Source: Micromonospora narathiwatensis (GTDB taxonomy: Bacteria > Actinomycetota > Actinomycetes > Mycobacteriales > Micromonosporaceae). Taken from it: 64,000 bases of DNA. Within the stretch, counting starts at the first letter, position 1. Each line of letters begins with the position of its first letter. The stretch is taken from positions 310,001 through 374,000 of the forward strand of contig NZ_LT594324.1 of assembly GCF_900089605.1 (NCBI RefSeq), read 5' to 3'. The notes under the pieces were generated by a model. The model made no database searches, was not told where the DNA came from, and saw nothing but the letters and a program-made list of their open reading frames with translations. Positions 21,203 to 32,013 of this stretch are shown here, in pieces. The position numbers were made by a program, and so were the translations under genes.

Positions 21203-21433
21203 GCCCCACCACGACGCGCCCGACCGCGGGCCCGCCCGGGAACGGCCGTCCGGCCTGCCGCCCGGATGGATCCGGGCAATTGGAGAGGCGGGGCGGGATG
21301 TCGCGCGGGCGGCCAACGGGTACGGTTGCGGGAAGGCTCCGACGGACGGCATCGGTGCCGGAGCGGTCCGCCGCGTCCGGCGCGGCACGGCCGGCCGGGC
21401 CCGGAGCAGGTGGTCCCGTCAGGAGGAGGTGCG

Positions 21434-21883
21434 ATGGTCCTGCTACGCCGGGTGATCGGTGACGCACTACGGGCGCGCCGGCAGGGGCAGCACCGCACCC
21501 TTCGCGAGGTCTCCTCCGCCGCCAACGTGAGCCTCGGCTACCTCTCCGAGATCGAGCGCGGCCAGAAGGAGCCCTCCAGCGAGCTGCTGGCGGCGATCTG
21601 CGACGCGCTCGGTGCCCGTCTCTCCGAGCTGCTCCGCGAGGTCAGCGACACCGTCGCGTTGGCCGAGCAGCTGCCGGGGGTGCTGGTTCCGGTGGCCGAC
21701 CAGCCGGTCGAGTCGTCGCCGGTGGCCGCGCCGGCCGTCCGCAAGGCGACCAACCGGGCGGTTCGCCAGGTGTCCTCCGACGGGTCGGTGGCCGTCCAGG
21801 TCCGCCAGGACTCGCCGCTCAAGGCGACGCTGCGCAGCACCCGGGTCCGCCCCGCGGACCGGGACGTGGTCTGCGCCGCCTGA
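21434..21883 (+). CDS. clgR: XRE-family transcriptional regulator ClgR
   Basis: 149 residues. The N-terminal helix-turn-helix '[33 protein letters not shown]' is nearly invariant in ClgR, the activator of clp protease and psp genes in actinobacteria. The C-terminus ends '...VVCAA', a non-polar Ala tail typical of ClgR and a likely ClpP degradation signal. Start ATG 21434 follows AGGAGGAGG. It heads a probable operon with pspA and pspM, as in Mycobacterium. I could not find a convincing ClgR box in the 230 bp upstream. Confidence 0.93.
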
Positions 21884-22060: not shown

Positions 22061-22921
22061 ATGGCGAACCCGTTCGTCAAGGGTTGGAAATACCTGATGG
22101 CGCTCTTCGGCTCGAAGATCGACGAGCATGCCGACCCGAAGGTGCAGATCCAGCAGGCCATCGAGGAGGCCCAGCGGCAGCACCAGGCGCTGGTCCAGCA
22201 GGCGGCCGCGGTGATCGGCAACCAGCGCCAGCTGGAGATGAAGCTGTCCCGGCAGATGTCCGAGGTCGAGCAGCTCCAGGCGAACGCCCGGCAGGCCCTG
22301 GTGCTGGCCGACCAGACCCGGGCCCGCGGCGACGAGTCCGAGGCCGGTCGGTACGAGCAGTCGGCGCAGCTCCTCGCCACCCAGCTGGTCTCCGCCGAGC
22401 AGGCCGCCGAGGACCTGAAGACGCTGCACGACCAGGCGCTCGCGGCGGCCGCCCAGGCCCGCAAGGCGGTCGAGAACAACTCCATGATCCTCCAGCAGAA
22501 GCTGGCCGAGCGCACCAAGCTGCTCAGCCAGCTCGAGCAGGCCAAGATGCAGGAGAGCGTGGCCCACTCGCTGGAATCCATGTCCGCGCTCACCGCCCCC
22601 GGCACCACCCCCTCGCTCGACGAGGTCCGGGACCGGATCGAGCGCCGGTACGCCACCGCGATGGGCCGGGCCGAGCTGGCCGGCAACTCCGTCGAGGGCC
22701 GGATGCTGGAGATCCAGAAGGCGACCCTCGACTCGGCCGGTTCGGCGAGACTGGAGCAGATCCGGTCGAGCATGGCCGGCGAGCGGCTCACCGGCCGGCA
22801 GGAGACCCCGGCGGTGGGGCAGACGCAGCCCGCCGCCGACCCGGCCGCCGCCGCCCGGCTGGACGAGATCCGCGCCAGCCTGAGCCGGGAGCGCGGCACC
22901 GGGGAGAGCGCCACCAGCTAG
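22061..22921 (+). CDS. pspA: Phage-shock protein A (PspA/IM30 family)
   Basis: 286 residues, almost entirely coiled coil. The amphipathic N-terminal helix '[27 protein letters not shown]' begins the usual PspA/Vipp1 fold. It is an ESCRT-III-like protein that coats stressed membrane. The C-terminal extension past residue 225 is Ala/Gln/Pro-rich and ends in a short repeat of the earlier '[10 protein letters not shown]' motif ('[10 protein letters not shown]'), so a small internal duplication is visible. AAGGCGGAG precedes the ATG. Confidence 0.95.
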
Positions 22922-22936
22922 GGACGGGGGAGAGCG

Positions 22937-23707
22937 ATGGCGGACGAACGGGCCCAATACTTCCGTCGACTGCGCCGGCTGCGGCGCTCCGCCCGCCGGT
23001 GGAGCGTCCTGGCCGGCGGGCTCGGCGGCGCCACGGCGGTGCTGACCCCGTACGCCGGGATCGGCCTGCCGGACGCGATCTGGGCCGGCGCCGCGGGCAG
23101 CGCGATCGCGGTCGCCGCCTGGCGCTGGGCCGACCTGCGGGCCCTCGCGGCCACGCCGGCGCCGCCGGCGCTCGACCCGGCCGAGGCCGCCGCCCGCTCG
23201 CGCGCCCGGCTGGTCGCCGCCGTCGAGCGGCTGCCCGTCGGGCCGGGCGTCCTGGCCGAGGTACGCCGGGTCCGGTCCCGCCTGGCGTTGCGCGGCACCA
23301 CGGCCGCGCAGGCGTGGGCCCGGCTCGACCGGGCGGCGTCGACCCTGGACGGGATGTCCGGCCGGCTCACCGGGCTGGCCGAGCCGGCGGTCCGGGAGGC
23401 GGTCGAGGCCGACCGCTCGCTGCGCGACCTGGCCGCCCGGGTGGCCAGCGTGGAACGGGCGCTCAAGCTCGCCCCGAACGAGCCGCTGGCCGAGGTGCAC
23501 GGCACCCTGGCCGGCCAACTGGAGAGCGGGGTGTCGGCGTACGAGCGGCTGGTGGTGGCCGCCGCCGGCTACGTGGCCGAGGACGCCCGACCGACCACCG
23601 AGCACCCCGCGGCGGCCCGACTCACCGAGGCGACCGACCTCCTGCACGGCGTCGCCTCCGCCCTGGCCGAACTCCGCACCCCCCACACCCCCGTAGCACG
23701 GGGCTAG
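22937..23707 (+). CDS. PspM-like PspA-associated membrane protein
   Basis: 256 residues. A basic N-terminus ('RRLRRLRRSARRW') precedes two adjacent hydrophobic segments (about residues 27-65), and the rest is a soluble helical, Ala/Arg-rich domain. It starts 16 bp after pspA with GGGGGAGAGCG upstream. In M. tuberculosis the gene in this position (Rv2743c, PspM) binds PspA at the membrane. The sequence itself is poorly conserved, so the name rests on order, size and topology. Its stop overlaps the convergent gene by 4 bp. Confidence 0.75.
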   Translation: MADERAQYFRRLRRLRRSARRWSVLAGGLGGATAVLTPYAGIGLPDAIWAGAAGSAIAVAAWRWADLRALAATPAPPALDPAEAAARSRARLVAAVERLPVGPGVLAEVRRVRSRLALRGTTAAQAWARLDRAASTLDGMSGRLTGLAEPAVREAVEADRSLRDLAARVASVERALKLAPNEPLAEVHGTLAGQLESGVSAYERLVVAAAGYVAEDARPTTEHPAAARLTEATDLLHGVASALAELRTPHTPVARG

Positions 23708-26700
23708 GTGGGGGTGGTGACCGGGATGGGGCCGGTCCAGGGTGAGGTGCCGACGACGTTGAACGACCGGATCCGGTAGTGGTAGGTGGTCCCCCGGGCC
23801 AGCCCGGTGTTGGTGAACCCCCGGCCGGTGACGGTGAAGGTGGTCAGCTCGTGGCCGAACGCGGGGTCGGCGGCCCGCTGCACCACGAAACCGGAGCCCG
23901 GACCGGTGGGCGTGCTGGCGGACCAGCTCAGGATCACCGTGGCGGTGTCCGGTGCGGGCGCGGTGGCGGTGGCGGCCACCCCGGTCGGCAGCCCCGGCCG
24001 GGGCGGGGTGGTCACCGTGGCGACCGTCGACCAGGGTGACGCCGCGCCCAGGTACGTGGTGCGGACCCGGTAGTAGTACGTGGTGTCCGGGGCGACCGCC
24101 GGATCGACGTGGGCGTCGCCGACCGCGATGGCGGTGGTGCCCGGCCCGCTGGTGAACGTCGGGTTGGTGGCCCGCTGCACGTCCACGCCGGTGGCGTACG
24201 AGCGGTTGGCCCAGCGCAGCGCGACCCGCAGCGGCGCGGCCGGTGGCACCGCCGCGGCCACCTTCTGCGGCGAGGTGAGCTGCACCGACGCCGGTACGCT
24301 GTTCGACCAGGCCGAGCAGCTCACCGCGTTCTCCGCCCGGATCCGGTAGTGGTAGGTGACCCCGGGTGTGACCGTCGCGTCGGTGTACCGGTTGGCGGTG
24401 GCGGCCACGGTGATCTCGGTGAGCCCGCTGGTGAAGGTGGCGTCGGTGGCGCGTTGCAGCAGGTGGCTCGTGGCCGGGGGACGGCTGCCGTTGCCGGTCC
24501 AGGCCAGCGCGATGGCCGGTAGCGCGGTGGCCGAGCCGGGCACCGGGGTGGCGTTCAGCCCGGTCGGGGCCGCAGGCGCGACCCGCAGCACCAGGGGCCG
24601 GCTCATGCCCTGGTCGCGCAGCCCCGCCGCACGGGTCTGCCAGCGGTACTCCCAGCCCAGGTTCACCAGTTGGTTGACCACCGCCGCCGGCCGCCCGTCG
24701 ACCGGGCTGACCGGGCTGCCGTCGAGCCGGGTGCCGGCCGGCCGGGTCGGGTCGAGCAGTCGTACGCTGTCGCCGACCTTGAACGGCAGGCTGGGCGGGA
24801 CCGGGCGCAGCGCCACGATCACGTCCTCCCGTGGGTTGACCCGGACGGTCTCCTTCCAGCCCAGTTCGTCGGGGTCCGGCGGGCGTACCGTGCCGTCCCA
24901 GCCGACCCGGTTGACCAGCTGCACGTCGCAGCCCGCCAGGTGTACCGGGTGGGTACGCGGGGCGTCCCCGACGATCCGCCAGAGCTGGGTGCCGTCGGCC
25001 GGCCCGCCGACCGGCGCGGTGGGATCGGTCGCGTACAGCACCTCGGTGGCCGGGTCGACCGGCCCGAGCGGCAGGGTGGCCGCGGTGAGCGGGCCGGCGT
25101 TCGGGTGGCCGACGCCGAGCCGTCCCACCGCCCGGCCGTGCCGGGCCTCGAAGACCTGCCCGACCGACTTCACCAGCAGCGGCAGGGTCACCGGGGCGAC
25201 CGCGCCGGCCGGGGTGAAGGTGACCGACGTGGCCCGCGCCGGGGCGAGCGTCTCGCGGATCGTGCGGGTGCCGAAGGCCGCGTCGTACGCCGGTTGCGGC
25301 ACGATCGGCGGTCGCTGGCTCGCCGCGTACGCCCCGGGCAGGCGGGCGGCGAGCCGGGCCACGTCGTACGGCTCCGCCGGGGCGCCGGCCACCCGGAACT
25401 GGAGCAGGGTCCGGGTGTTCGGGCCGTAGCCGGGCCGGGCGGCGGGCAGCCCGCCGGTCGGGGTGCGGTCGGGAGCACCGGTGTGGTGGTCGTACCGGGG
25501 GTCGAACCGGGGCACCGGGGTGGGACAGTCGTTGTAGAGGATCAGGGCGCTGCCCGGCGGGACCGTGGCGAAGTCGATCACCACGTCGGCCCGCTCCCCC
25601 GGGGCGAGCAGCAGGGCGTGCCCGTCCACGTTGAGCACGGTCGGGTCCTGCCGGTCGTACCGGTAGCCGATCGGCCGGTTCGCCAGCACCACCGGGGCGG
25701 GCAGCAGGCCCGACTCGTTGCCGATCCGGATCAGCTCCGGGCCGGCGGCGTCGGGATCCGGCACCCCGCCGTCGCGCCCGTCCGTGGGCCAGCACGCCGG
25801 CCGGCCGGCCGCCCGTACCGCCTCGACCATCGGCACCTCCCCGGCGTCGGGGTCGGCCAGGCTGCCGTCCGCGGCCCACATCGGCCCGTCCGAACCGGCC
25901 CGGTAGAGCTGGAGGTTGAGGCTGCGGTCCGCGCAGGCGTTGAGGATCCGGAACCGGTACGCCCGTGGCGCCACCTCCAGGTACGGATAGGCCACCCCGT
26001 TGACCAGCGGCGTGTCCCCGTACGCCTCGGGGACGGCCGACGGGTGCGGCACGTTGGGCGCCAGCGGTGGCTCGTCCGGTTCGGCGACCGGGTCGTGGTG
26101 CGGGTTCGGCACCGGGGCGACCCACGGGCTGGCGCCGCCGTCCGGGTCGTGCGTCCACGGCCCGTAGTCCCAGCGGCCGGTCGGGTTGGTGCCGGTGCTG
26201 CCGTACGGGTTCTGCCGGGGCTGGTAGACGTGCGGGTGCCAGAGGCTGCCCTTGGCGCCCCAGCGGTCCCGGTCCCAGGTCGGGTCCTGCGCGGCGAGCT
26301 GGGCGTCGTCCGGTACGAAGGTCTTGTCCTGGATCACCAGCGGCACCTGGTCGGCGGGGAGCACCCCCTCGTCGATCAGTCGCTCCTCGGCCGGATCGGT
26401 GAGCAGATAGACGGCGAGCTGCCCGGAATAGACGGTGAGCCGGGACAGGCCGAGCGTGTTGTCGTGCAGCCACATCAGCCGGCCGCTCTGCTCGTTCGGG
26501 AAGTAGAGGGTGGTGGCCCCGGCGCCGGCCGGCGGCATGTCCGGCACCGGGGTCACCCCCACCCCGACCGGGTACGGGGTGATCTCGCCGGCCGGGGTCA
26601 CCCACTGCCAGGGGTTGCCGGCGCTTATCCACGCCGTCTGCGCCCCGGCGAGGTGCGGCACCGCCCGGTTCTGCGGGTACGGAGCCGGCCCGTTCAGCGG

Positions 26701-27333
26701 TCCGGTGCCGGCCCCGTCCAGGGTCTCGTCGACCGGCAGGAAGAGTTCGCCGGCCCGGCCGGTGGGTAGTTGGTTGATGAACTTGATCCGGACCGGCCGG
26801 CCGCGGCGGGCCATGATCACCGGGCCGAGGTGCCAGGGCCGGTCGGGCGGGCTGACCGTGTTGTGCCCGGACGGGTCGGTGCCCAGGTTGAGCTGGCGGT
26901 AGCCGCGCAGCCGGGTGGCCGGCAGGTCCCGGTGCAGGCGCTGGGCGTACTCCTGCAACCCGATCTCGTAGTAGTCGCAGCCCGGCCAGGTGATGGTGTC
27001 CGGCACCGCCACCGGCAGCCGGGCGCCCAGCCCGGCGGTGGCCGGCGAGCTGGAGCCGTCGAACGTGTTGGGCAGCGGCAGCGCGTCCACGAACTTGCGG
27101 ATGCCGGTGCCGGGCACCGGCCGGCCGTCCCGGTCGAGCACCGGCAGCGGGCTGCCGGCGAAGTTCGGCACCGGGCCGAAGCAGCGCGGCACGGCGGCCG
27201 GGTCGAGGCTGGCCGGTCCCGGCCCGGTCTCGTCCTCGGCGACGCGGGCGGCGGGCACGGTCGGCGCGTGGTCCTCCTGGGTCCGGACGGCGCGGTCCGC
27301 CCAGCCCGGCCGGAGTCTGCGGAACAGGGCCAT
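23704..27333 (-). CDS. CotA-like multicopper-oxidase-fold protein lacking copper ligands, fused to three fibronectin III domains
   Basis: About 1,209 residues. Residues ~40-915 align in order with Bacillus CotA-type laccases: 'MWLHDNTLGLSRLTVYSGQLAVYLL', 'VPLVIQDKTF', 'YPYLEVAPRAYRFRILNA', 'GWKETVRVNPRED' and 'YRWQTRAAGLRDQGMSRP'. The copper-ligand motifs are degraded: HLHGG is HLAGA (227-231), HDH is HDN (290-292), HPxHLH is HPVHLA (795-800), and WHCHILEH is WQTRAAGL (898-905). Three FnIII modules follow (~918-1209), each with a Y-x-Y-R-I/V-R strand. There is no hydrophobic signal peptide. ATG 27333 follows GGGGAG. It is probably a structural or binding protein, not an oxidase. Confidence 0.87.
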   Translation of the reverse strand: MALFRRLRPGWADRAVRTQEDHAPTVPAARVAEDETGPGPASLDPAAVPRCFGPVPNFAGSPLPVLDRDGRPVPGTGIRKFVDALPLPNTFDGSSSPATAGLGARLPVAVPDTITWPGCDYYEIGLQEYAQRLHRDLPATRLRGYRQLNLGTDPSGHNTVSPPDRPWHLGPVIMARRGRPVRIKFINQLPTGRAGELFLPVDETLDGAGTGPLNGPAPYPQNRAVPHLAGAQTAWISAGNPWQWVTPAGEITPYPVGVGVTPVPDMPPAGAGATTLYFPNEQSGRLMWLHDNTLGLSRLTVYSGQLAVYLLTDPAEERLIDEGVLPADQVPLVIQDKTFVPDDAQLAAQDPTWDRDRWGAKGSLWHPHVYQPRQNPYGSTGTNPTGRWDYGPWTHDPDGGASPWVAPVPNPHHDPVAEPDEPPLAPNVPHPSAVPEAYGDTPLVNGVAYPYLEVAPRAYRFRILNACADRSLNLQLYRAGSDGPMWAADGSLADPDAGEVPMVEAVRAAGRPACWPTDGRDGGVPDPDAAGPELIRIGNESGLLPAPVVLANRPIGYRYDRQDPTVLNVDGHALLLAPGERADVVIDFATVPPGSALILYNDCPTPVPRFDPRYDHHTGAPDRTPTGGLPAARPGYGPNTRTLLQFRVAGAPAEPYDVARLAARLPGAYAASQRPPIVPQPAYDAAFGTRTIRETLAPARATSVTFTPAGAVAPVTLPLLVKSVGQVFEARHGRAVGRLGVGHPNAGPLTAATLPLGPVDPATEVLYATDPTAPVGGPADGTQLWRIVGDAPRTHPVHLAGCDVQLVNRVGWDGTVRPPDPDELGWKETVRVNPREDVIVALRPVPPSLPFKVGDSVRLLDPTRPAGTRLDGSPVSPVDGRPAAVVNQLVNLGWEYRWQTRAAGLRDQGMSRPLVLRVAPAAPTGLNATPVPGSATALPAIALAWTGNGSRPPATSHLLQRATDATFTSGLTEITVAATANRYTDATVTPGVTYHYRIRAENAVSCSAWSNSVPASVQLTSPQKVAAAVPPAAPLRVALRWANRSYATGVDVQRATNPTFTSGPGTTAIAVGDAHVDPAVAPDTTYYYRVRTTYLGAASPWSTVATVTTPPRPGLPTGVAATATAPAPDTATVILSWSASTPTGPGSGFVVQRAADPAFGHELTTFTVTGRGFTNTGLARGTTYHYRIRSFNVVGTSPWTGPIPVTTPT

Positions 27334-27482
27334 GGCTCTCCCCGGGATCAAGGCGCGCCCGCCGCCACCCCGGCGTGCCGGGCGTACGCGCTGCTGACGA
27401 TCGGTGAGCGGTCAACCGCAGCATGCGACGCCGAAGGTGGGGGAGGGAAGTACCCAACCGTCCGTATCTCGGGGGGATCTTG

Positions 27483-27509
27483 CCGGTTCGTGGAAGTTCC
27501 ACGGACCGG
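27483..27509 (-). terminator. Hairpin after the OmpA-domain gene
   Basis: CCGGTTCGTGGAA and TTCCACGGACCGG form a 13-bp stem with one mismatch, starting 11 nt past the stop on the minus strand. There is no clear U-run. Confidence 0.5.
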
Positions 27510-27519
27510 CGGTTAGGTG

Positions 27520-28128
27520 TCAGCGGTCGAAGCGGATCTCCACCCGCCGGTTCCGGGCCCGACCCGCCGGGTTGTCCCGGCCGTCCACCCGGTTCGGCGC
27601 CACCGGCCGCGCCTCGCCGAAGACCCGCACCTCGAAGCCGACCGACGGGGCACCGAGCAGCCGGACCAGCTCGGCCCGGACCGCCTCCGCCCGCCGCCGG
27701 GACAGCGTGAGGTTGCTCCGCTCGTCGCCGACCGAGTCGGTGTGGCCGTGGATCTGGATCGTGCCCTTGGCCTGCGTACGGAGCTGCTCGGCGACTCCGG
27801 CCAGCCGGGTCCGGGCGGCCGGGGACAGCTCGGCCCTGCCGAAGGCGAACAGCACGTCGGCGGCGAGCGTCAGCTCGACCCGCGAGCCGGACTCGGCGGT
27901 GATGCTGCCGTCGGCCAGGTCCTCGACCGGGACGAGGATGTCGAGCGCGGAAGCGGTGATGTCCAGCACCGGGCGGACCACCTCCGTGCCGGGGGCGATG
28001 CTCGGCCCGGGCACGACCACCGGCCCCGGCGGCGGGGACGTCGGCTGCGCGGCCACCGCCGCACCGGCCGGTACGACAAGGACGAGGGCGACGGCCAGCG
28101 CCGCCGCCCGCTCAGCCGAGCGGGACAT
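27520..28128 (-). CDS. Secreted OmpA-family protein
   Basis: 202 residues. A signal peptide (hydrophobic residues 8-27, Ala-rich cleavage region near 'VAAQP') is followed by a Pro-rich stretch and an OmpA C-terminal domain: 'ADVLFAFGRAEL', 'IQIHGHTDSVGDERSNLTLSRRRAEAVRAEL' and a terminal 'RNRRVEIRF'. These domains bind diaminopimelate in peptidoglycan; the Asp and Arg of the binding motif (TDS...LSxxRA) are present. It starts inside the end of the upstream lipoprotein gene (17-bp overlap), so the two likely work together at the cell wall. Confidence 0.92.
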   Translation of the reverse strand: MSRSAERAAALAVALVLVVPAGAAVAAQPTSPPPGPVVVPGPSIAPGTEVVRPVLDITASALDILVPVEDLADGSITAESGSRVELTLAADVLFAFGRAELSPAARTRLAGVAEQLRTQAKGTIQIHGHTDSVGDERSNLTLSRRRAEAVRAELVRLLGAPSVGFEVRVFGEARPVAPNRVDGRDNPAGRARNRRVEIRFDR

Positions 28129-28705
28129 TCTCGAACACCGGTACCCGGGGGATGACCACGTCGACGGCGGTGACGTCGTCCGGCGGGGCGCCGAAGGTGG
28201 CGTACAGCCAGATGGACTGGTCGGGCTTCACGAAAATCTTGGAGAGGTTGGTCGAGGCGAGGTACTGGCTGTCCTTCCCGCCCGGGGCGGTGTCCGGGTC
28301 CACCCTCGCGACCAGGTACCGCTTGCGGTTCTTCCGGTCCACCAGGGTCACCCCGGCGAAGGTGAGCGAGATGGTGTCGCCCTCGAAGGTGTCGCCGACC
28401 TGCCAGTCGTCGTTCCCCGTGCCCTGGTCGGTGCGGGTCATCTTGACGTTGACGTTGACGAACCCGTCCCGGCGTCGCAGTTCGTACAGCTCGACGCGCA
28501 CCGAATAGAGGTTCCTGCCCCTGGTGATCTGCGCGTCGCGGGTGGCGACGACCGCGCCGAGGTCCGCGACGGTCTCGGTCGCGGCAACGGCTGTGGCCTG
28601 CGTGCCTTCGGGCCGGTCGGGGCCGCCCAGGACCCCGCATCCCGTCATTGCCAACGTCGTGATCAGCGCGAACGCGCCGAGCCGGCTCGTCCTGTTTGAC
28701 CGCAC
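28112..28705 (-). CDS. Lipoprotein of unknown function, partner of the OmpA-domain protein
   Basis: About 197 residues. Lipoprotein signal with lipobox LAMTGC (Cys23). The mature part contains 'LYSVRVELYELRRRDGFVNVNVKMTRTD' and several beta-strand-like segments, like a small beta-sandwich. GTG 28705 has a GGGGGGTAGG run upstream. No family is recognised. Its overlap with the OmpA gene suggests a membrane-anchored partner of a peptidoglycan-binding protein. Confidence 0.75.
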   Translation of the reverse strand: MRSNRTSRLGAFALITTLAMTGCGVLGGPDRPEGTQATAVAATETVADLGAVVATRDAQITRGRNLYSVRVELYELRRRDGFVNVNVKMTRTDQGTGNDDWQVGDTFEGDTISLTFAGVTLVDRKNRKRYLVARVDPDTAPGGKDSQYLASTNLSKIFVKPDQSIWLYATFGAPPDDVTAVDVVIPRVPVFENVPLG

Positions 28706-28956: not shown

Positions 28957-29760
28957 TCAGCGGTGGTCCGGCTGGCAGGTGGGACACCAGTAGGTGACCC
29001 GTTCGCCCAGTTCCTCCTTGCGGATGGCAGTGCCGCAGCGCCGGCAGGGCTGTGCCCGGCGGCCGTACACGTAGCTGGTCTGCCCCCGGTGCAGCGAGCC
29101 GGTGGTGCTCTGCGTCCAGCGGCCCCGGTTCGCGGCGAGCAGCCGCTGCACGAGGGCGACCGTGCCGGCCAGGTCGGGCACCGCGCCGACCGGCGTCCAC
29201 GGCGAGACGCCGCGCAGGAACAGCACCTCGCACTTGTAGAGGTTGCCGACCCCGGCCAGGTTGCGCTGGTCCAGCAGCGCCTCACCGATGGTCTCGTCCG
29301 GGTGGGCGGCCAACCGGCGGACCGCCTCGTCCGGGTCCCAGTCCGGGCCGAGCAGGTCTGGCCCGAGGCGCCCGACCAGCGACTCCTCCTCGGCGGTCGG
29401 GATCAGGGCCAGCTCGTGCAGGTGGTAGCCGACCGCCACCGCGCCGGGGGAGCGGAGCACCGCCCGGATCAGGTGCGCCGGCCGGGCCGCCCACCGCTCG
29501 CCCGGGGCGTACGCCCGCCAGGCGCCGTCCATCCGCAGGTGCGAGTGCAGCGTCCAGTCCCGCCGGCCGTCGGGCCCGTCCGGCGCGGCGAGCCGGAGCA
29601 GCAGGTGCTTTCCGCGGCTGGCCGACTCGCGGACGGTCCAACCGGTGAGGTCGGTCGCGGCGAGCCGCGGCACCCGGAAGTCGGAGCCGGTGAGCCGGGC
29701 ACCGGCCAGCGCCCGCTGGAGGAGGCGGGCGGTGTTCCAGACGGTGTCGCCTTCGGGCAC
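28957..29760 (-). CDS. nei: Fpg/Nei-family DNA glycosylase (endonuclease VIII type)
   Basis: 267 residues. After loss of the initiator Met the protein starts P-E-G-D-T, giving the catalytic Pro1 and Glu2 of the Nei branch. The H2TH region reads 'GEALLDQRNLAGVGNLYKCEVLFLRGVSP' and the zinc finger is C-x2-C...C-x2-C ('CRRCGTAIRKEE', 'WCPTCQ'). It excises oxidised bases and nicks the strand. GTG 29760 has GAGGGAGG 8 nt upstream. It lies 22 bp after the SAM hydrolase gene, probably co-transcribed. Confidence 0.94.
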   Translation of the reverse strand: MPEGDTVWNTARLLQRALAGARLTGSDFRVPRLAATDLTGWTVRESASRGKHLLLRLAAPDGPDGRRDWTLHSHLRMDGAWRAYAPGERWAARPAHLIRAVLRSPGAVAVGYHLHELALIPTAEEESLVGRLGPDLLGPDWDPDEAVRRLAAHPDETIGEALLDQRNLAGVGNLYKCEVLFLRGVSPWTPVGAVPDLAGTVALVQRLLAANRGRWTQSTTGSLHRGQTSYVYGRRAQPCRRCGTAIRKEELGERVTYWCPTCQPDHR

Positions 29761-30652: not shown

Positions 30653-30729
30653 GCGGGAAGGCTATCCGGCGGGCCGGTGACGGCCGGACGGCGGGACGCC
30701 GCCTCTAACGGGTGGAATGTGACAATGTT

Positions 30730-30744
30730 TCGCCAATCTGGCGA
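30730..30744. repeat. Short palindrome upstream of the TIGR03118 gene
   Basis: TCGCCA-ATC-TGGCGA, 6-bp arms, in the 260-bp gap before the gene at 30916. It could be an operator; no other signal is evident in this gap. Confidence 0.35.
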
Positions 30745-30915
30745 GGAGCCCGCGATCGCCATGGAACGGTCGCTATGGGCGTCCGAGACTCGGGACGGCC
30801 GAGGGCTCCACGAATTCCCACGCGCCGAGCCGCCGACGCCCACGCCCGCGGCCGCGACGGTCACCCGGCCCTTCTCGCGGACGCCGGCCCCTGTCACTCG
30901 AGCGAGAGGAGCAGC

Positions 30916-32013
30916 ATGGCGACGAAGATGGTGCGGCTGGTCACCATCGGGGCGGTGGCCGCGGCCACCGCCGTCGGTAGTCCGGCCTGGGCCCACGACG
31001 GCGGCCACGAGCGGCACGGGACGCCACGCTTCGACGTGATAAACCAGGTCTCGGACCAGGCGCTGAAGCAGGATGCCCGAAGACCACCGTTCGTGGACCC
31101 GAACGCGGTCAACACCTGGGGCCTCGCCCTGGGCCCGGACACGCCGTTGTGGGTGGCCAACAACGGCACCGACACGGCCACCGTCTACAGCGGCGGGGTG
31201 GACGGCGCGCCCGTTGACAAGGTCAACATCACGGTCAACGTGCCCGGCGGGCCGACCGGCGCGGTGTTCAACGACACGGACGGCTTCGCGGTGCCGAACG
31301 GGGGCGGCAACGCGCCCGCCAGGTTCATCTTCGTCACCGAGGGCGGCGACGTCATCGCGTGGAACCAGAACGCGGGCGCCAACGGAGTCGTCGTCGCCCA
31401 CGGGGCGGAGGGCGCGGTCTACAAGGGAGCCACCCTGCTGCACACGGACTCCGGCAACTTCCTCCTCGCCGCCGACTTCCACAACGCGCGGATCGACGTG
31501 TTCGACGAGCACTTCGACAAGGTCGAACTTTCGGACCGCCGCTTCCAGGACGAGGAGTTGCCGGAGGGGTTCGCGCCGTTCAACGTGTTCGCCGTCGGCG
31601 AGGCGGTCTACGTCAGCTACGCCAAGCAGGACGCGGCGGCCCATGACGACGTGCCCGGTGTCGGGCTCGGCTTCGTGAACCTGTTCACCGACTTCGGCCG
31701 GCGCGTGTGCCGGGTCGCCAGCCGGGGGACGCTCAACGCGCCGTGGGGCATGGCCATCGCGCCGAAGAGCTTCGGCAGGTTCGCCGGGGACCTGCTGGTC
31801 GGCAACTTCGGCGACGGCAAGATCAACGTGTTCGACGGCAACGAGTTCGAGGGACTGCTGCGGGACGACGACGGTGACGTCATCACGATCGACGGTCTCT
31901 GGGCGCTGTTGCCGGGGACCGAGCAGACCGGCGGCGAGGGCACGCTCTGGTTCAGCTCGGGGCCGGACAACGAGCAGCACGGTCTGGTCGGTCAGCTGAT
32001 CCGGGCGAACTGA
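30916..32013 (+). CDS. Secreted TIGR03118-family protein (beta-propeller-like)
   Basis: 365 residues with a signal peptide cleaved after AWA26. The mature protein starts with a His/Asp/Gly-rich stretch and shows TIGR03118 family blocks: 'FVDPNAVNTWGLALGPDTPLWVANNGTDTATVYSG', 'GPTGAVFN' and a late 'APWGMAIAP...GDLLVGNFGDGKINVFD'. Repeating beta-rich units suggest a propeller fold. Function is unknown. ATG 30916 follows GAGAGGAGC. The gene stands alone and ends at a strong terminator. Confidence 0.87.
   Translation: MATKMVRLVTIGAVAAATAVGSPAWAHDGGHERHGTPRFDVINQVSDQALKQDARRPPFVDPNAVNTWGLALGPDTPLWVANNGTDTATVYSGGVDGAPVDKVNITVNVPGGPTGAVFNDTDGFAVPNGGGNAPARFIFVTEGGDVIAWNQNAGANGVVVAHGAEGAVYKGATLLHTDSGNFLLAADFHNARIDVFDEHFDKVELSDRRFQDEELPEGFAPFNVFAVGEAVYVSYAKQDAAAHDDVPGVGLGFVNLFTDFGRRVCRVASRGTLNAPWGMAIAPKSFGRFAGDLLVGNFGDGKINVFDGNEFEGLLRDDDGDVITIDGLWALLPGTEQTGGEGTLWFSSGPDNEQHGLVGQLIRAN

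Follow-up and report, generated by a model that had tools for sequence, protein, structure and literature searches.

The 64,000-nucleotide stretch of the Micromonospora narathiwatensis genome analyzed here (positions 310,001 to 374,000 of contig NZ_LT594324.1, assembly GCF_900089605.1; hereafter the window) carries on its reverse strand a gene for a protein of 1209 amino acids, P0001, in which a predicted multicopper oxidase (MCO) fold of the CotA type is followed by fibronectin type III (FnIII)-like domains and most copper ligands are gone (Table 1). P0001 residue numbering is used below for motifs and ligands. The start chosen was the ATG at 27333, which lies inside a start region conserved among relatives (consensus GGGGAGAGCCATGG); an alternative in-frame TTG is present six codons upstream. 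The Pfam Cu-oxidase_2 match of P0001 was barely above the cut-off (21.4 vs. 20.4 bits). By its predicted fold, with three cupredoxins in a CotA-type arrangement, P0001 is a member of the MCO superfamily. A previous reading of the DNA made without database searches (the sequence-only reading) had counted three FnIII domains. The third, scanned alone, passes the Pfam fn3 cut-off (33.8 vs. 25 bits), while the first, also scanned alone, gives a sub-threshold fn3 match (18.3 bits) and the second matches other families only, below their thresholds; beta strands run through all three in the secondary structure of the predicted model.

Table 1. Positions in the window of the P0001 gene, its motifs and its neighbors.
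Feature	Position	Strand	Basis or remark
Coding sequence of the copper-ligand-depleted CotA-type protein P0001	23704..27333	-	1209 amino acids; start region conserved
Basic-aromatic N-terminal signature, residues 1-12 (MALFRRLRPGWA)	27298..27333	-	pattern F-[RK]-[RK]-x in first 60 residues
Predicted three-cupredoxin MCO-type region, residues ~110-925	24559..27006	-	AF2 model; Foldseek and VIA-align to CotA
Motif I, HLHGG to HLAGA; H227 kept, A229 lost	26641..26655	-	alignment
A238, equivalent of CotA D116	26620..26622	-	alignment to 1gsk
Motif II, HDH to HDN (N292)	26458..26466	-	alignment; N in 94/95 near orthologues
Motif III, HPxHLH to HPVHLA; A800 lost	24934..24951	-	alignment
Motif IV, WHCHILEH to WQTRAAGL (Q899, T900, R901, L905)	24619..24642	-	alignment
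R906, equivalent of CotA E498	24616..24618	-	alignment to 1gsk
Three FnIII-like domains, residues 920-1209	23707..24576	-	third clear, first weak, second predicted strands only
Upstream element GGACGnTTGGGTAnTTCC, ~120 nt 5' of the start	27446..27463	-	54/78 upstream regions
pspM, convergent, overlaps the end of the P0001 coding sequence by 4 bases	22937..23707	+	NF047839, 184.7 bits (cut-off 80); PF25587
pspA (PspA/IM30)	22061..22921	+	PF04012, 140.8 bits
clgR-like regulator, start provisional	21389..21883	+	NF041677, 104 bits (below cut-off 170); HTH_3
nei2-like DNA glycosylase, conserved upstream neighbor	28957..29760	-	NF040775, 286 bits (below cut-off 400); context

The CotA numbering was fixed by an alignment of P0128, an intact relative, with 1gsk, by which CotA H105/H107 correspond to P0001 residues 227/229, D116 to 238, H491/C492/H493 to 899/900/901, H497 to 905, E498 to 906 and M502 to 910; the division of the ligands into type 1, type 2 and type 3 is assumed here. 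The sequence-only reading had described all four copper-binding motifs as altered, with the type 1 Cys and several His gone, and this is what the alignment gives: the motifs read H227-L-A229, H290-D-N292, H795-P-V-H798-L-A800 and W898-Q-T-R-A-A-G-L905, the ligands being lost at A229, N292, A800, Q899, T900 (the type 1 Cys), R901 and L905. Of the ten His, one Cys and one axial residue that make up the four motifs of a laccase, P0001 retains 5, i.e., H227, H290, H795, H798 and the axial M910, and at the place of the His-Cys-His tripeptide (HCH) that accompanies the intact type 1 site of CotA laccase it has Q899-T900-R901. Relocated ligands were ruled out, as none of the 7 Cys of P0001 lies in an HCH and its sole H-x-H is at 366. 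A gene-model or sequencing artefact was ruled out as well, given that many independent assemblies show ligands lost at the same positions.

The ligand loss extends to a whole clade. The protein set consisted of the best 120 of 3426 and the best 120 of 5834 matches, which gave 153 proteins including the query. In the FastTree phylogeny, built from 857 columns with the ligand columns removed, P0001 falls in a clade of 116 proteins, 95 of them near orthologues, whose named members come from Micromonospora, Salinispora, Verrucosispora and Plantactinospora. The clade members have 2 to 10 ligands left, and no intact member was found within the clade among the proteins listed. The HCH tripeptide is kept in 0/116 members and the Cys in 9/116. 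The substitutions of P0001 recur in its relatives, e.g., Asn at position 292 in 94/95 near orthologues and Ser or Thr at position 900, which is Cys in intact relatives, in 93/95. Outside the clade are 37 proteins, of which 36 have all 12 ligands and form the intact set used here; P0150, which lacks HCH and scores 8/12 ligands owing to a divergent C-terminal part, was left out of that set, so that strictly 36/37 are intact. Alignment puts the ligands of the intact relatives at the same positions, and no case of ligands at shifted positions was seen among them. Invariant columns in the 36 intact relatives number 242; P0001 matches 197 of the 230 of these that are not ligands, and the near orthologues retain on average 0.39 of the 12 ligands vs. 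0.84 of the other 230 columns. Because only 1 of 20,000 random sets of 12 drawn from the 242 columns was as poorly retained, the ligand loss is not a matter of chance.

Residues near the copper sites have changed too. PDB titles locate CotA D116 and E498 near the trinuclear site, and both have a role in proton transfer. The D116 equivalent is Ala in 95/95 near orthologues and Asp in 36/36 intact relatives (N 8, A 7, D 5 and S 1 among the 21 other clade members), and the E498 equivalent is Arg in 94/95 near orthologues and Glu in 36/36 intact relatives and 4/21 other clade members. The sequence-only reading had called the protein very unlikely to be an oxidase. That claim is strongly supported by the sequences across the clade and is also backed by the near orthologues, all 95 of which have lost the equivalents of D116 and E498; P0001 is very probably not an oxidase.

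The clade members differ in which ligands they have lost. Those of the L089/L090 type keep HDH and have Gly for the Cys and Gln for the H491 equivalent, while those of the L091/L092 type, common to Plantactinospora, keep the Cys but have HDQ and HCQ; the Plantactinospora-type intermediates, L091 and L092 included, keep 7-10 ligands. These mosaic losses require at least two separate inactivations under any topology, unless ligands were regained. P0151, in which most ligands are absent and which has the N-terminus of the intact group, may represent a separate loss event; the support for its placement is weak (0.352). In addition, L093 (genome G079, of a neighboring genus) has at the same locus a more eroded form, which is short of ~38 residues beside motif IV and of most ligands. 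L096 (G061:C1, ~6178384-6179265) is an FnIII-only relative, found in a genome without the full gene, whose 325-aa frame matches residues 913-1207 only, at 49% identity.

The gene is fixed in position. We compiled 91 loci holding the gene or an intact relative from the best 80 of 468 genome loci, the window and further genome stretches, ten of eleven of which held a match. All 85 loci other than those of intact relatives adjoin pspM and/or nei (ligand patterns were tabulated for 84, with L098 left out). The pspM gene is present in 75 of them, within 400 bp in 71 and at 0.7-2.2 kb in four, with a median gap of 84 bp; in the remaining 10, nei lies within 530 bp; nine of these loci stop close to the edge of a contig, and the tenth (L069) contains N runs. 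All six intact loci that we examined sit elsewhere in the genome, with pspM or nei in 0/6, and the surroundings of four of them gave no usable functional hint. The gene was matched in 37/37 sampled Micromonospora genomes, in 5 of them only in pieces or part, and an intact paralogue stands alongside it in at least one of the 37 (L097); as 11 candidates at most were scored per genome, the absence of second copies is not firm. In a survey of 61 genomes from 44 genera of the family, again with up to 11 candidates scored per genome, near-full-length strong matches were found in six genera. Five of these genera have the gene at this locus; the copy of the sixth (G113, L094) is an intact one in another part of the genome. 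The pspM region was retrieved from nine genomes that lack the full gene; in four of them nei is the immediate neighbor of pspM, with gaps of 58, -14, 150 and 247 bp; in one other the two genes are 1.6 kb apart, and in four no nei was found in the stretch. The nei-pspM gap in these relatives is likely the empty site, and insertion into it is the simplest reading of the history of the gene.

The clade also differs from the intact relatives at the N-terminus. By a strict pattern, 97/116 clade members have a basic-aromatic start (MxxFRRL and variants) vs. 0/36 intact relatives, and 13 of the 18 clade members missed by a looser pattern start with near variants (FRIF, FRMF, FRRP). The N-terminus, modelled from residue 10, has pLDDT under 50 in the AF2 model. 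This start could be a docking or membrane-binding tag; because amphipathic-helix scoring gave only middling moments, membrane binding is a guess. In a simple hydropathy scan of the first 60 residues, an export-like hydrophobic stretch was found in 0/116 clade members (KD15 maximum 0.79 in P0001, with no Tat signal of the FtsP/SufI type), and in 10/36 intact relatives, none from the Micromonosporaceae group. Thus, no signal peptide was seen, as the sequence-only reading had stated, but its view that this is odd is weakened by the intact relatives of the same family, which also start without one. Judged on these sequences, the absence is not odd for this lineage.

The P0001 family is clearly under purifying selection, evolving a little faster than its neighbors. 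Under a GY codon model averaged over sites, omega was 0.102 for 12 orthologues and 0.074 for three intact paralogues, and among the neighbors (11 sequences each) it was 0.050 for pspA, 0.078 for nei, 0.081 for pspM and 0.037 for rimO. The reading frame is complete and uninterrupted in 76/81 loci (the window and three intact loci counted); the five exceptions comprise three loci that stop at contig edges, one with N runs and L074, which is spread across two frames. Among the 95 near orthologues, mean column entropy is lowest in the first-cupredoxin region (0.45 bits), followed by FnIII-like domains 1 and 2 (0.60 and 0.53 bits), and the third FnIII-like domain is less conserved (0.95 bits).

We consider it fairly probable that P0001 is a pseudo-MCO that now serves as a soluble cytoplasmic scaffold or binding protein, this being the best explanation of the whole, history included. 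An intact oxidase gene would have been inserted between nei2 and pspM in the ancestor of Micromonospora and a few neighbor genera and would have gained a short basic-aromatic N-terminus; the copper ligands would then have been lost along more than one route, while selection on the rest of the protein kept the gene. The type 1 and trinuclear copper centers would no longer be built and oxygen would not be reduced. P0001 would be soluble in the cytoplasm, possibly peripheral to the membrane, and its MCO fold and FnIII-like domains may present surfaces to a partner in a manner comparable to FtsP/SufI at the Escherichia coli septum. The new binding or structural role proposed in the sequence-only reading is plausible in light of a fold predicted to be intact, an omega of 0.10, the occurrence across the sampled genus and the fixed locus; its partner is only hypothetical.

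FtsP/SufI of E. coli (2uxv, 2uxt) is the closest analogue of P0001, not an orthologue. P0001 scores 41.7 bits against the FtsP equivalog model NF008135, for which the cut-off is 581. FtsP/SufI is a periplasmic Tat substrate not known to have FnIII domains, unlike the P0001 family, in which the N-terminus is new and basic and the scan showed no export-like segment. According to the report on its crystal structure, FtsP/SufI keeps 2/12 residues and shows no copper density, and a scaffold at the septal ring is favored (PMC2661564). Compared with the CotA laccase of the Bacillus spore coat (e.g., 1gsk), P0001 has lost 7/12 ligands and the D116 and E498 equivalents, has large insertions and FnIII-like domains, and has no known link to a spore coat. 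The intact CotA-FnIII proteins of Micromonosporaceae and other bacteria (the P0118 group; P0118 is 55% identical to P0001 over 98% of the query) share its domain order, but they keep all 12 ligands, sit elsewhere in the six loci examined and have an FRRL-type N-terminus in 0/36 cases. Insect MCORP and plant SKU5 are described in PMC4203857 as MCO homologues in which most copper residues are gone and the type 2 residues kept, MCORP being essential though without detectable oxidase activity. Both are eukaryotic and from other MCO subfamilies, MCORP is not an orthologue of P0001, and the losses were probably independent. No paper on the copper-ligand-depleted family was found in searches of the open-licence literature, subscription papers being outside the scope; judged by titles, the SufI paper was the single match that dealt with an MCO-like protein.

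Several observations weigh against the scaffold reading. The Cys is kept in the 9/116 clade members mentioned above, 4 of which keep the type 1 set H795/C900/H905, and among the 21 more distant members D116 is retained in 5 and E498 in 4. Branching at the base of the clade is poorly supported (0.39, 0.63 and 0.35). Omega of the P0001 orthologues, as a site average, is slightly above that of the neighbors, and the gene is in pieces in G004, G014, G016 and G029, with only its end matched in G005; these copies may reflect draft assemblies, and true breakage is conceivable. The retained H227 and H798 could conceivably hold one weak copper or other metal ion. Because FnIII domains are uncommon inside cells, export by an unrecognized route is possible. 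Finally, the partner and the cellular location proposed for P0001 are both hypothetical.

The position of the gene suggests a phage-shock link, in which P0001 would work with the neighboring ClgR-PspA-PspM system, its basic-aromatic N-terminus bringing it, under envelope stress, to the membrane or to PspA/PspM and its MCO-FnIII body serving as the scaffold. The convergent pairing with pspM at a short median gap in 75 loci, the confirmation of pspM by NF047839, the lack of the N-terminal signature in the 36 intact relatives and the likewise arginine-rich N-terminus of the window PspM, which has an FRRL motif, are consistent with this reading. However, the MCO-fold gene is on the strand opposite to the clgR-pspA-pspM transcription unit and convergent with it, which gives no co-transcription, and nei2 on the other side is equally constant and unrelated to envelope stress. 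Because the whole block from rimO to lhr is conserved, synteny is weak as functional evidence. Moreover, pspM was found in 12/14 family genomes picked for lacking the full-length gene, and a term search of the main text of a 2024 survey of phage-shock protein systems gave no occurrence of copper, fibronectin or Micromonospora (PMC11237479). We regard this partnership as unlikely. A fuller version, in which a laccase was captured beside the phage-shock operon, lost its copper centers in parallel and gained an N-terminal tag for docking on the membrane or PspA/PspM, becoming an intracellular core structural component of the envelope-stress response of the Micromonospora group, is a doubtful conjecture. 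The same survey's main text restricts PspM to mycobacteria and corynebacteria (PMC11237479), and a confident PspM (NF047839) is present here in Micromonosporaceae.

It is also improbable that P0001 is a metalloprotein with a mononuclear type 2 site, in which a single copper or other metal ion, bound by the two type 2 His, would serve a new reaction or metal storage. Consistent with this idea, P0001 has both H227 and H798, H227 is kept in 85/95 and H290 in 89/95 near orthologues, and MCORP, which keeps two type 2 His, had copper in ~6% of molecules if each binds one (PMC4203857). Nevertheless, the type 2 pair is kept in only 39/95 near orthologues. Position 798 is Arg in 46/95, and Asp or Glu occupies position 800 in 39/46 of those with Arg798 vs. 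19/49 of those without it (counts that ignore relatedness), which looks like a filled cavity and not like a metal site; Arg798 and Asp/Glu800 may form a salt bridge inside the emptied site.

That P0001 is a slowly decaying relic with no function of its own appears very improbable: the ligand columns are heterogeneous, omega is somewhat above that of the neighbors, L093 has lost the stretch beside motif IV and most ligands, and the gene is in pieces in some draft genomes, but the matches in all 37 genus genomes, the complete frames, the retained invariant positions and the low omega argue against it. Finally, although the Plantactinospora-type intermediates keep 7-10 ligands, the notion that P0001 remains an oxidase by means of unusual or relocated ligands can hardly be sustained, given its lack of a Cys in HCH, its single H-x-H and the near orthologues, which keep at most 7 ligands and have lost the D116 and E498 equivalents.

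Upstream of the gene, the element listed in Table 1 is a possible promoter. It has a single perfect match in its own genome, at the P0001 gene. With up to 2 mismatches, 4 sites were found for the element vs. 1 for a reversed control pattern, and for this reason no regulon is claimed. For the 24/78 upstream regions without a match, failure of the start finder, diverged spelling and true absence are all possible; the element was not found in three Plantactinospora-type loci (L071-L073). In an alignment of 24 loci, conservation is good over the ~120 bp preceding the start codon, which comprise GGACGATTGGGTAnTTCC, then GCATGCTGCGGTTGA, then GC-rich stretches that resemble inverted repeats. A riboswitch or structured leader was rejected, as 27200-27650 had no Rfam match at E up to 5, and a scan of 23500-28200 for sigma-70 promoters and terminators found nothing. 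The GGGTA presumably resembles an actinobacterial stress-sigma -10 element, an identity that we do not claim. Between nei2 and the MCO-fold gene, the window genome has a gene for an OmpA-family protein (27520-28128, reverse strand) with no tblastn match in the other 80 loci (E up to 1e-8, >30% of length), which looks like a local insertion. Further upstream, the product of 30712-32013 (forward strand) has a signal-peptide-like start and, scanned from 30925, no Pfam match; it was matched only in L006 and L098 among the loci compared.

Copper-less MCO folds have so far been known singly (FtsP, MCORP and SKU5). The P0001 clade adds a new lineage to this known type of pseudoenzyme, and its evolutionary series is unusually complete, one locus offering in living strains a probable empty site, relatives that are intact but located elsewhere, intermediates that keep 7-10 ligands and more advanced losses. 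Because the whole series exists in living strains, the passage from a redox enzyme to a non-catalytic protein is directly testable. If the phage-shock reading were true, P0001 would be a case of a bacterial MCO pseudoenzyme that has become a scaffold for the envelope-stress response and works within the cell, not in the periplasm. Among the matches listed, relatives are partly named "multicopper oxidase" or "laccase" in the databases; despite such names, the members of this gene family, which occurs throughout the Micromonospora genomes sampled, should not be counted as oxidases.
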